Source: Niabella drilacis | GTDB lineage: Bacteria; Bacteroidota; Bacteroidia; Chitinophagales; Chitinophagaceae | Direction: 5' to 3' | DNA length: 59,080 bases | Assembly (NCBI RefSeq): GCF_900101395.1 | Contig: NZ_FMZO01000024.1 | Location: 1 to 59,080, forward strand | Shown here: piece by piece, positions 54,941 to 59,080 of the stretch | Layout of the letters: every line of letters begins with the position of its first letter | How positions within the stretch are numbered: the first letter of the stretch is position 1 | Notes under the pieces: generated by a model | What the model was told of the DNA's origin: nothing | What the model saw: only the letters and a program-made list of their open reading frames with translations | The model's database searches: none | Position numbers and translations under genes: made by a program

Positions 54941-57073
54941 ATGAAAAAAAATTACGCCAAAATGACTATTCAAAATCAGGAGAATGCTTTACTACGAAAA
55001 ATATGCCTGTTGGCGTTTTGCTGTCTGTGCATCAGCCAGGGATATGCCACTATAAGATATGTGGCGCCTTCGGGCTCCGGTAATGGTAGTAGTTGGTTAA
55101 ACGCCAGCGGCGATATTGCAGCTATGATTTCAGCATCGGCCCCCGGCGATGAGGTATGGATTAAAAAAGGTACTTATACACCAGCCGCCACCTTAGGAAT
55201 GAAAAATGGGGTAGCCATCTATGGTGGCTTCGCAGGTACTGAAGTGCAGCTTAGTGAGCGCAATTTTGCAACCAACCCCACCATAATCAATGGCCAAGGT
55301 AATAAGCTCGTATTTAGCAACTCCAGCCTTGATGCCACGGCGGTTTTAGACGGCTGCACCATTAGCAATGGTTATGGAGGTTTTGCAGCCGATGGTGGAG
55401 GTATGTCTAATTACACATCTCAGGTAACAATTAGAAATTGTGTTTTTGCCAATAATAAGGCAGTTTATGGCGGGGGAATGTATAATAGCAATTCCAATCC
55501 AACTATCAGCAATTGCGTATTTGCAGGCAATCAATCCTTGTATAATTCAGGCGGGGCTATGTATAATTCTAATTCCAGTCCCAATATCAGCAATAGTGTA
55601 TTTACAGGCAACAGCTCGGCCGCTCATGCAGGGGCCATACACAACACTTCAAGCTATTCCCCAAGGCCTGCTAGCCCAACCATCACCAATTGTGTATTTA
55701 CGGGCAATACCGCGGCTGATAATGGCGGGGCTATGTATAATTATAATTACTCCTACCCTACTATTACCAATTCTATTATTTATGGTAATACTGCGCGGTT
55801 AATTGCCAGTATTTCTAATTCTGGCGGCGCAACACCTATCATAAACTATTCCGATATTCAGGGTGGTTATGCGGGTACGGGTAATCTGGATACCGACCCT
55901 CTGTTTGTCAACGCCACCACACCTGCCGGTTCTGACGGTATTTGGATGACTGCCGACGATGGCCTTGCACTTTTTCCGTGCTCCTCACCCGTCATCAACA
56001 TGGGTACTACGCCCACACCCGCCCTGCCTACGGATATATTAGGTAACGCCCGTGTGGAGACCTACGATATGGGTGCGTATGAAAGTAGCACAAGTGCCAA
56101 TTCTACAGCGCTCTCCGATGTTGCAATAAGCGTTACCAAAATTCAACAACCAATTACGAATTATTTTTCCGATTGTTTGCATAATGTGTGTACTATTATG
56201 CAAAATGGTTCCAACCCTGTTAGGAATACAGTTACTGCAAAAGTATGGATTGATAATACCCAAAATCCGCAGTTTGTAAAACGCCATTATGAAATTACAC
56301 CCGCCGATCAACCAAACGACTATGGTGGCACAGTTACGCTTTATTTTACACAACAGGAATTCACAGATTTTAATGCGGTAAATACTGTTAAACTTCCAAC
56401 AAGTGCAATTGATGCTGCCGGCAAAGCAAATTTACTGATAGAGAAAAGAAGTGGTGTAAGCACTAATGGCAGTGGTTTACCAGGCACTTACACGGGCACA
56501 ATAGAAACTATAAATCCTGTTGATGCAAATATTATCTGGAATGCCAATAGTGCACGGTGGGAAGTAACTTTTGATGTTAGGGGTTTTAGTGGATTTTTTG
56601 TAAAAACACAATTAATCTCCCTTCCCGTATCCTTCGGCGCCCTATCAGCTTCTATCCAAAACAATAAACTTACCGTCAACTGGCAAACCCTTTCCGAAAT
56701 CAATAACGATCATTTTGAAATAGAAGCCTCGCAGGATGGCGTAAACTTTACCACCATAGCCACGGTTACCAGCAAAGCCCAAGACGGCAATAGCAGTACA
56801 ACCTTACAATATAGCTGGGAAGCGGATTCGGGCGCGTTAGTTGCTTTTTCCGGGCTGGGCATTGTTCTACTTATTCTACTGTTGCCTGTAGCGCATCGTT
56901 ATAAAAAACAGTTGTTGATGGTTTCGGTTGTTTTGTTTATGACGTTTATTTCCTGCTCAAAACGAACAGATAGTTTAGCCGAAAATACGGGCGACAAATA
57001 TTTTATCCGTATTGCACAGGTAGATAAAGATGGTGGTAAAACTTATTCTAAAATGGTAAGGGTTGTAAATTAA
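54941..57073 (+). CDS. Secreted right-handed beta-helix protein with a C-terminal two-helix tail
   Basis: 710 residues: signal peptide (to about YATIRYV), then a beta-helix of polymorphic repeats (about 40-300; e.g. RNCVFANNKAVYGGGMYNSN, SVFTGNSSAAHAGAIHN, CVFTGNTAADNGGAMYN), a choice-of-anchor-like segment (DGIWMTADDGLALFP, NARVETYDMGAYE), beta domains (about 380-540) and a fibronectin-like module (SLPVSFGALSAS, LTVNWQTLSEINNDHFEIEAS). The end (about 625-710) carries two hydrophobic stretches (GLGIVLLILLLPVA, LLMVSVVLFMTFISCSK) and a short soluble tail, where a type IX sorting domain would be expected. Divergent from a sensor kinase that probably controls it. Confidence 0.85.
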   Translation: MKKNYAKMTIQNQENALLRKICLLAFCCLCISQGYATIRYVAPSGSGNGSSWLNASGDIAAMISASAPGDEVWIKKGTYTPAATLGMKNGVAIYGGFAGTEVQLSERNFATNPTIINGQGNKLVFSNSSLDATAVLDGCTISNGYGGFAADGGGMSNYTSQVTIRNCVFANNKAVYGGGMYNSNSNPTISNCVFAGNQSLYNSGGAMYNSNSSPNISNSVFTGNSSAAHAGAIHNTSSYSPRPASPTITNCVFTGNTAADNGGAMYNYNYSYPTITNSIIYGNTARLIASISNSGGATPIINYSDIQGGYAGTGNLDTDPLFVNATTPAGSDGIWMTADDGLALFPCSSPVINMGTTPTPALPTDILGNARVETYDMGAYESSTSANSTALSDVAISVTKIQQPITNYFSDCLHNVCTIMQNGSNPVRNTVTAKVWIDNTQNPQFVKRHYEITPADQPNDYGGTVTLYFTQQEFTDFNAVNTVKLPTSAIDAAGKANLLIEKRSGVSTNGSGLPGTYTGTIETINPVDANIIWNANSARWEVTFDVRGFSGFFVKTQLISLPVSFGALSASIQNNKLTVNWQTLSEINNDHFEIEASQDGVNFTTIATVTSKAQDGNSSTTLQYSWEADSGALVAFSGLGIVLLILLLPVAHRYKKQLLMVSVVLFMTFISCSKRTDSLAENTGDKYFIRIAQVDKDGGKTYSKMVRVVN

Positions 57074-57376: not shown

Positions 57377-57748
57377 AATACACGGCTGATTTGTCTGAAT
57401 ACACTAACTATCCTTTCTTTTCTTTTTTTATATAATCCCCTCATTTGGATAATTCATTGCCGGGTCTGAGCTTTCCTTGACCGGACAATTTCTCCAGAAT
57501 TTTGTACACCGGCTGCTTCTTATCGACCCCCGGTTTTAATACACAGTGGAGATCCCTTTGTAATTGGAGAAAACAAAGAAGAATCAACAATGATCAAAGA
57601 TTGTAGAACTATCCAAAACAGAATTTGTCAAGGTCGCAGTATAGCGAAAACCAGAAATGCACCTTCCCACTATAATCTGTTTATTTGGTTTTTGTCCCTA
57701 AAATTCGTAACAGGGGAAAATTTGGAAGTGCCGGTTTTATGGCTACCT

Positions 57749-57756
57749 TAGATTTG
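57749..57756 (+). promoter_or_regulatory. TAGATTTG promoter box of the lipoprotein gene
   Basis: Exact TAnnTTTG match, 44 bases before the ATG at 57801. Confidence 0.5.
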
Positions 57757-57800
57757 AATTTTTATTATATAACCTGTTCTCCAATAACCAACCGCTGTTT

Positions 57801-59080
57801 ATGAAAAAAAAAATTAACTGCTTTTTCCGGCCTCCTGTTGCTTTTTCTTTTTATTTACGTTGGATGTAATAAAGTCATTCATGAAAAGGACGGTGCCGAT
57901 ACGTTAAGTGAAAAAAAGAAAAACGTAAAAGGCGCCAGCTACAAAAAAGGCGATTTTGTGTTTAGTATGACCAACCTGCGTAAAATTACAAGTCCGCGTT
58001 CGCTTACGGCTGATCCTATTATCCAGCCAACGCACCTGTATATGGTTTTTAAACCGGTAACGGCGGCGCATTACCAGGCCATAGAGGATAAGCATATTCC
58101 TGTTTACCCCTTCCCTTTGGCAACGGATTCATTGGATGTAAGCGATCCGGATTATTCCACCTTATACACATTCCTTCCCATCAAAAATGCAGGGGATCTG
58201 CCCAACTGTCCCTATACATTATTAGACAGTGTTTGCCTGCTTAACCCGGAGTCACCCGCTGCAGCGCTTGCCTACCAGGCAGCGGGAAAAGCGTTCCCGT
58301 TCTCCGTCAATTCGGGTGGGGGTGAAGGGGGACCGGATGATCCTTGTGATCCCTGGGAGTATTGTCCTGTTGTACCGGATCCGCCAATTGATCCGCCGCC
58401 ACCGCCCCATCACCCGGCGCCGCTATTGCCTGCGGATAACCGGCTGGCTCCGTTTACGGTTACCTACAATGGTTGCAGTATGAATACGGATGAAAATTAC
58501 CCGAGTGGGCGGATAACGGTTGAAGAAACACAATGGGGAAATGGTGGGATAGCCTATGAGGGGGTGGCCGATGTAAGGGTAGAGATCCTGGGGCCCATGG
58601 GCCAGCGGGTAGTGGCGCAAACCGACCGGTATGGATGCTTTAAAGCTACCAGTGCCATTATAGGCTTCCGGCCCCCGGTCGGGCCACGGCTGCCGGTTAT
58701 TATGAATGTTATTTTTGAAAGTGATCGCAAGGAAATAAGGGGCTATAATGATCTTGCCAACCTGGGGCAATACAACCTGCCTTTAAAGCATATTTATGGA
58801 AATATATCGTATAGCATGAATAATGCGAATATTTCTTATGAACGGAATACAGATGACCAGGATAATGATGCAAAATACTATGTGGCGGCCACGGTTAATA
58901 ACGCGTTATATGAATTTGATGAGAATGCCGCAGCGGATGGCATTTTACCGCCTCCGTATGGGATTCAGATATTAGTGCATCGTTTTGCCGGGGATGGTGC
59001 TGCACCCATGTTTGCACAAATGTCCGGCACCTACCCGGTGCAAATGGGTACAATTAAGTCGTTTTTCATAGGTGCAGCCG
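57801..59080 (+). pseudogene. Large lipoprotein gene, signal peptide out of frame at an A10 tract, runs off the window
   Basis: ATG at 57801 is followed by ten A. In this frame the protein ends after 22 codons. With nine A it reads MKKKLTAFSGLLLLFLFIYV then GCNKVIHEKDG, a normal signal peptide and lipobox (C at 57865). From there the frame stays open to 59080 (more than 400 codons): KGASYKKGDFVFSMTN, a proline-rich link (about 58380-58430), a domain with VADVRVEILGPMGQRVVAQT and YGCFKAT of the carboxypeptidase regulatory type, then a further domain. No in-frame ATG exists for about 50 codons after the tract. Frameshift, phase switch, or slippage are all possible. Confidence 0.75.

Follow-up and report, generated by a model that had tools for sequence, protein, structure and literature searches.

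In the MafB/MafI system of Neisseria, a constant N-terminal part is joined to a variable C-terminal part, a small cognate gene adjoins it, further cassettes with their partners lie downstream, and near-identical tails are paired with near-identical partners (PMC4287609). Here we describe a lipoprotein gene of Niabella drilacis that has a comparable layout and that begins in a stretch of 59,080 nucleotides (nt), the whole of contig NZ_FMZO01000024.1 (the window, also called C27), in a draft genome of 6.1 Mb and 45 contigs; positions are those of this contig unless another is named. Directly after its start codon the gene carries a run of ten A (A10), which leaves the lipoprotein leader out of frame. 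We consider this tract to be probably a slipped-strand phase switch acting on a lipoprotein that exchanges its C-terminal cassette, most likely in an antagonism resembling that of polymorphic toxins and their immunity proteins.

The likeness with MafB is one of layout: MafB is a secreted toxin, with MafA as the lipoprotein (PMC4287609), whereas here effector and partner both carry a lipobox, the frame depends on a 5' repeat and the border of the cassette falls within a peptidase-like domain. The TpsA/tpsC/IORF islands of meningococci are also comparable, with truncated 3' cassettes interspersed with small open reading frames (ORFs), the first of which gives immunity, and with rare recombination via short identical stretches; TpsA is however a two-partner-secreted protein, and tpsA is described in that source without a phase switch (PMC3848433). 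Concerning the SitA/SitI system of myxobacteria, a lipoprotein of the outer membrane serves as the polymorphic toxin and has a cognate immunity gene, but it depends on TraA-dependent outer membrane exchange and bears nuclease-type tails in the cases described (PMC5562445, PMC8546572). The SitA-type lipobox on the effector is present here too, as seen by motif scan and by eye, while our protein is peptidase-like, comes from the Bacteroidota and is associated with 5' repeats and downstream cassettes. The APD1/APD2 effectors of Amoebophilus, also of the Bacteroidota, share the lipobox, a conserved N-terminus and polymorphic C-termini, but they are predicted to act against the eukaryotic host and are described there without a partner lipoprotein or a 5' repeat; the same source (Zhang et al. 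2012) names only one lipoprotein immunity family in its collection (PMC3482391). As to the switch, in simple-sequence phase-variable genes an unstable repeat near the 5' end moves the body in and out of frame (PMC2831843). Among the few matches listed for open-licence literature we recognised no report on this family, on phase variation in Chitinophagaceae or on such a phase-variable polymorphic toxin.

The A10 tract and the two copies of the gene

The original prediction, made from the window alone, was that the A10 tract puts a lipoprotein signal peptide out of frame while the rest of the gene stays open. The features on which this depends are the following, all on the plus strand.

57801-57803: start codon ATG, read from the sequence; the same site is the start of the intact Niabella aurantiaca gene
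57804-57813: A10 tract, the proposed phase-variable repeat, from the sequence; A9 in N. aurantiaca
57801-57869: ATG frame as assembled, by translation, 22 codons and then the stop TAA at 57867-57869
57805-59079: body frame, by translation, with signal peptide, lipobox and the N-terminal two thirds of the lipoprotein
57865-57867: lipobox cysteine codon (YVGC), a motif found by eye
58501-58720: putative carboxypeptidase-regulatory/transthyretin-like beta domain, approximate place, suggested by CarboxypepD_reg below cut-off and weak Foldseek hits
57690-57800: upstream block common to both copies, where homology to the copy on contig C14 begins (blastn)
58657-59080: last 424 nt, matching the first part of contig C8 exactly and contig C44 with one mismatch, by sequence comparison

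The ATG is thus followed by exactly ten A and by a frame of 22 codons, while the body frame encodes a signal peptide and the lipobox LFIYVGC (recognised by eye rather than by a signal-peptide program) and stays open for 425 residues, up to the contig end. It has no other good start, being closed upstream by TGA at 57802, and the first of the codons ATG, GTG or TTG to appear in it, TTG at 57838, already lies within the signal peptide. As the window is the entire contig, the contig end truncates the gene, and the HExxH motif of the lipoprotein falls past it.

A second near-identical copy was found at the end of contig C14 (1391 nt with 8 substitutions and no gaps when the two contig ends were compared by blastn, the match beginning at locus position 1386, that is window 57690). 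This copy likewise has A10, and one substitution 7 nt past the run distinguishes it from the window copy, indicating that the two runs were assembled apart; as assembled, both N. drilacis copies are therefore in the OFF frame. Contigs C8 and C44 start inside the gene and bear the two 3' halves, with HExxH, a swappable tail and partner genes. Since the 424-nt overlap is common to the ends of C27 and C14 and the starts of C8 and C44, either 5' half could join either tail. Stops accumulated beyond the window had been named as an observation that would count against a switch or slippage; none was found, both 3' halves being open to the normal stop.

In N. aurantiaca (G011) the run is A9 and in frame, giving an intact gene of 651 codons. 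With respect to this gene the body frame has a dN/dS of 0.11 over 421 codons, a rough figure since dS (1.9) is near saturation, and the differences at codon positions 1, 2 and 3 number 92, 74 and 212; between the two N. drilacis copies there are 7 codon differences, 4 of them silent. These data support selection acting on the gene body, as had been argued from the clean frame.

About 100 nt 5' of the start there is an inverted-repeat-like element, GTC..C-TAAAATTC-GT..AC (window 57694-57711, locus L003 1388-1405); the element with TAAAATTC is present in both N. drilacis copies and in N. aurantiaca and is a possible operator. Directly upstream of the gene, 54941-57073 encodes a repeat-rich protein of 710 codons, in which inspection by eye showed a hydrophobic stretch late in the sequence and, near the C-terminus, a lipobox-like motif.

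The protein family and its 5' repeats

The lipoprotein is a member of an unnamed family, found mainly in Chitinophagales, whose lipoproteins have an HExxH...E (zinc-peptidase-like) arrangement. When the window protein was the only query, matches were obtained in 6 of 149 relatives and in 3 of 17 genomes of the genus (own genome counted); alignment queries found members in 18/294 and 28/394 genomes of the bacterial family (two overlapping draws), in 48/396 of the order and in 4/395 of the phylum, own genome included. All these counts are lower bounds, since only 3 or 4 candidates were scored per genome. No match to the N. aurantiaca protein was found on plasmids, nor a convincing one by sequence in the PDB. 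In the 44-sequence alignment (1 of the 45 candidates, L045 with 999 codons, was left out), each of H461, E462, H465 and E510 (numbered as in N. aurantiaca) occurs in 42 members. HExxH with a distal glutamate we take to mark a zinc peptidase of the gluzincin type, and peptidase activity of the family is accordingly a prediction from conserved residues. A structural model of the intact N. aurantiaca protein reached a pLDDT of 81 and a pTM of 0.84 (an earlier model from 4 sequences, with pLDDT 42, was unusable), and its best weak Foldseek hits include several small transthyretin-like beta domains; CarboxypepD_reg appeared, below cut-off, in 2 of the 44 relatives. The protein would thus consist of a lipoprotein signal, an N-terminal region, a small beta domain and a peptidase-like domain with HExxH and the distal E.

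In the window gene and in some of its relatives a repeat between start and body sets the frame. Besides the A10 of the two N. drilacis copies (out of frame) and the A9 of N. aurantiaca (in frame), G074 has C9, out of frame, and the four gene copies of G149 carry G12, T8/G6, a heptamer present six times and another heptamer present about four times with a further stop, all out of frame. C10 in G362, T9 in G387, CCAA nine times in G487 and C7 in G598 each leave the body out of frame, and the same is true of the G run of 10, 11 and 7 in G100, G496 and G520, three species of one genus in which it apparently occupies the same place. G622 (C8) is in frame; G367 (C8) is in frame at the run, yet its reading ends after 135 codons. 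As assembled, 14 are out of frame and 3 in frame at the run, a tally that is silent on the favoured state because random lengths would give about two thirds out. The run sits past the lipobox in G496, G520, G598, G100 and G622.

To count such repeats, 5' windows were flagged at 9 for A or T, 8 for G or C and 18 nt for a longer repeat, with identical windows for all sets. Of 54 distinct 5' ends 11 were flagged, whereas the bodies of these genes gave 2 flagged windows out of 573 (P 4.8e-11), these two being the G10 of G100, just past the 5' window, and an in-frame CCA repeat. Compared with other ORFs of at least 250 codons, from which loci chosen for A runs were excluded, the difference is 11/54 against 5/158 (P 1.9e-4); 22 of the 158 are lipobox-like and 1 of these was flagged. 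An earlier control, with 5 of 97 lipobox-like ORFs, included loci picked for A runs and was replaced by the one with 158 ORFs. We also counted distinct G/C runs of at least 9 in ten whole genomes, chosen for carrying a repeat or for being Niabella: G074 has 4, G149 5, G362 7 and G496 16, and in each of them one lies in the start-body stretch of this gene. In the remaining six genomes the 5' part of the gene lacks runs of this kind, and the repeats there are A/T, a tetramer or a shorter C run.

This excess at 5' ends supports slipped-strand phase variation as a trait of the family. The repeat length differs between close relatives (A9 and A10; 10, 11 and 7 G in one genus) and the repeat type between genera, suggesting that an unstable repeat is retained at this place by selection while its kind is free to change. 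The comparison of tract length with relatives, proposed at the outset as a check, thus speaks for the switch that had been envisaged.

C-terminal cassettes and partner lipoproteins

Contig C8 has, after the 3' half of the full gene, a small lipoprotein gene and then four C-terminal pieces without HExxH. Each piece has a small lipoprotein gene directly after it, and one partner-only gene is interspersed with them. A frameshift affects the fourth piece, with a G9 run at the break (C8:5444-5452, L027) that is one of 8 such runs in the genome. N. aurantiaca has one C-terminal piece with its partner and one partner-only gene. Orphan cassettes with partners were found in three Niabella genomes, and C-terminal pieces beside full genes also in G074, G303, G311, G382 and G423. 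Concerning the family as a whole, a small lipoprotein-like ORF lies within 200 nt after 25 of the 37 full genes with room for it (2 of the 37 being the N. drilacis 3' halves).

The N. drilacis pieces begin with an anchor that contains E510 and aligns with the full gene over 114-123 nt at 83-93% identity. In the two full N. drilacis genes the 255 residues before this border are 98.8% identical and the tails after it 51%. Between species, the N. aurantiaca tail that is in use shows 87% identity to an orphan tail of N. drilacis, their partners being 69% identical, and another pair reaches 90% for the tails and 88% for the partners. Tails and partners vary together: over 11 modules their identities correlate with r 0.79, and a Mantel comparison gave r 0.85 (P 5e-5) for the 10 modules without the frameshifted one and r 0.58 (P 9e-4) for the 8 modules left when those of N. 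aurantiaca were removed.

The partner-only genes (L027 3582-4124 and L033 10481-10903) are 77% and 82% identical to partners of the other species, like orphan immunity genes.

Proposed phase switch, possible antagonism and alternatives

If the tract is a phase switch, slipped-strand mispairing would change the repeat length and turn the lipoprotein on or off, leaving the effector on in some cells. The exchangeable cassette of Niabella would extend from just before the distal E to the C-terminus and on to the small cognate lipoprotein; the downstream cassettes without HExxH, each with a partner, would be likely silent donors, and homologous recombination at the anchor would swap tail and partner together. 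The lipoprotein, which we infer to be at the surface, would act as a peptidase there or on a neighbour, delivered by contact or by vesicles, with the tail setting the specificity and the small partner protecting its owner. For lipoproteins of Bacteroidota a signal for export to the surface has been described (PMC5080379). Switching within populations, recombination at the anchor, toxicity and immunity are likewise predicted. It is possible, and we advance it tentatively, that this constitutes a new class of antagonism present across the Chitinophagales, in which a repeat switch is combined with the anchor-mediated swap of the third metal ligand, the tail and the matching inhibitor gene. In that case soil and water Bacteroidota would own an unnamed family of polymorphic effectors, hidden by phase variation and changed in specificity by cassette exchange. 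This would explain the arrays of uncurated lipoprotein pairs in such genomes, and would provide a simple system for asking why a weapon should be phase-variable.

Several observations weigh against this interpretation. Repeats at our thresholds, which were chosen after the first cases had been seen, are missing from 43 of the 54 members, including the Niabella relative G001 with only six A at the start, and from all three relatives outside the order that were inspected by eye. The 5' ends came from the collected loci and not from all hits, the two N. drilacis copies count once, and the length differences are those between species and paralogs. Part of the family decays, because G1020 and G824, both outside the order, are interrupted without any repeat, and both orphan cassettes of G001 are interrupted too. 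Our script found no partner for 12 of the 37 full genes, and internal starts might yield some product in the OFF frame. Effector and partner gave no family above cut-off in Pfam, NCBIfam and PADLOC, and no known toxin, immunity, peptidase or defence match there; in a Foldseek comparison with the model nothing in the PDB reached E <= 0.001.

Surface lipoproteins commonly undergo phase variation. This, together with the lack of a recognised toxin domain, leaves room for a non-antagonistic role, less likely as we judge it, in which a phase-variable surface antigen or peptidase varies its tail and inhibitor lipoprotein for substrate range or for escape from phages or predators; orphan tails with cognate partners and partner-only genes fit toxin-immunity arrays better than the variation of an adhesin or enzyme. 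A plain pseudogene, with a single frameshift before the copies separated and no switching back, would account for the A10 common to both copies, and some relatives and orphan cassettes are interrupted elsewhere; it is improbable given the open remainder on C8 and C44, the constraint on the body with respect to N. aurantiaca and the silent share of the differences between the copies. We also evaluated whether the frame could be a sequencing or assembly error. Drafts can misread long runs, the contig ends in a collapsed repeat and a TlpA-like gene (L093) is also split at A10, but A10 stands in both copies, which a substitution distinguishes, two further coding A10 runs in this assembly keep their frame, and the tetramers and heptamers of relatives are not homopolymer errors, making such an error very unlikely.

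Slippage at the RNA level, which had been offered beside the switch, requires a longer discussion. RNA polymerase or ribosomes slipping at A10 would give a constant in-frame fraction while the DNA stays unchanged. Runs of nine A are avoided in the coding regions of many bacteria as slippage-prone, dnaX of Thermus slips at A9 (PMC1088944), and an A11 run rescues tssM of Citrobacter (PMC4256274). The genus itself may use such slippage, as its dnaX (named by reading) carries, at one place in 17 genomes, A10 in 12, A9 in 4 and an interrupted run, A7, in 1; just a few codons past the run, stops close two of the three frames, and in 2 of the 17 (G012 and G013) the assembled frame is one of the closed ones. 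The layout is the same as that of the Thermus site, a possible RNA slippage site, with the difference that the longer product there is the unslipped one, whereas the unslipped A10 lipoprotein message encodes only 22 codons (PMC1088944). From this likeness A10 messages may partly slip, so that OFF may mean low expression rather than none, and slippage may be an addition that makes the lipoprotein leaky. As the sole explanation it is rather unlikely: in other genera this place is taken by runs of C or G, by a tetramer or by heptamers, which slippage at an A run does not explain, and N. aurantiaca has an in-frame A9. Repeats of these other kinds fit DNA slippage better than slippage of RNA polymerase. 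Pure RNA slippage, a pseudogene and an assembly error all rank below the phase switch.

A runs of at least ten are found at 32 distinct places in the genome. The coding A10 runs of a dnaX-like ORF of 625 codons and of a PP2C-like ORF of 372 codons are in frame as assembled, while within longer ORFs out-of-frame runs occur in the two lipoprotein copies and in the TlpA-like gene; these names come from inspection of the sequences rather than from family searches. ATG-A10 occurs at 4 sites, of which 2 belong to the lipoprotein copies, and ATG-A9 at 10; as they stand, 7 of the 14 open an ORF of at least 60 codons, 3 of the 7 being copies of one 334-codon ORF. The share of ATG-A10 sites in this gene, together with the unrelated repeats at the same place in relatives, points to more than chance. 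A mere MKKK habit of lipoproteins was considered and set aside; it makes A runs likely but fails to explain C, G, tetramer and heptamer repeats. The A9 that had been reported in a putative transposase at the other end of the window is also present: close to the contig edge, 74-82 reads T9, hence A9 on the minus strand, and the frame that starts at 253 on that strand stops ten codons past the run.

Other genes with A runs were noted. The N. drilacis dnaX-like gene (G000:C29:135611-137485, L105), with those of 16 other Niabella genomes (L106-L123), has a possible transcriptional slippage site that could yield a short gamma-like product. The TlpA-like gene (G000:C32:4739-4748, L093) is split into two overlapping frames at its A10, which may be a switch, a slippage site or an error. 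A small lipoprotein gene (G000:C29:434104-434116, L022) has an ATG-A9-TG start, in which a second ATG ends the run in the body frame.
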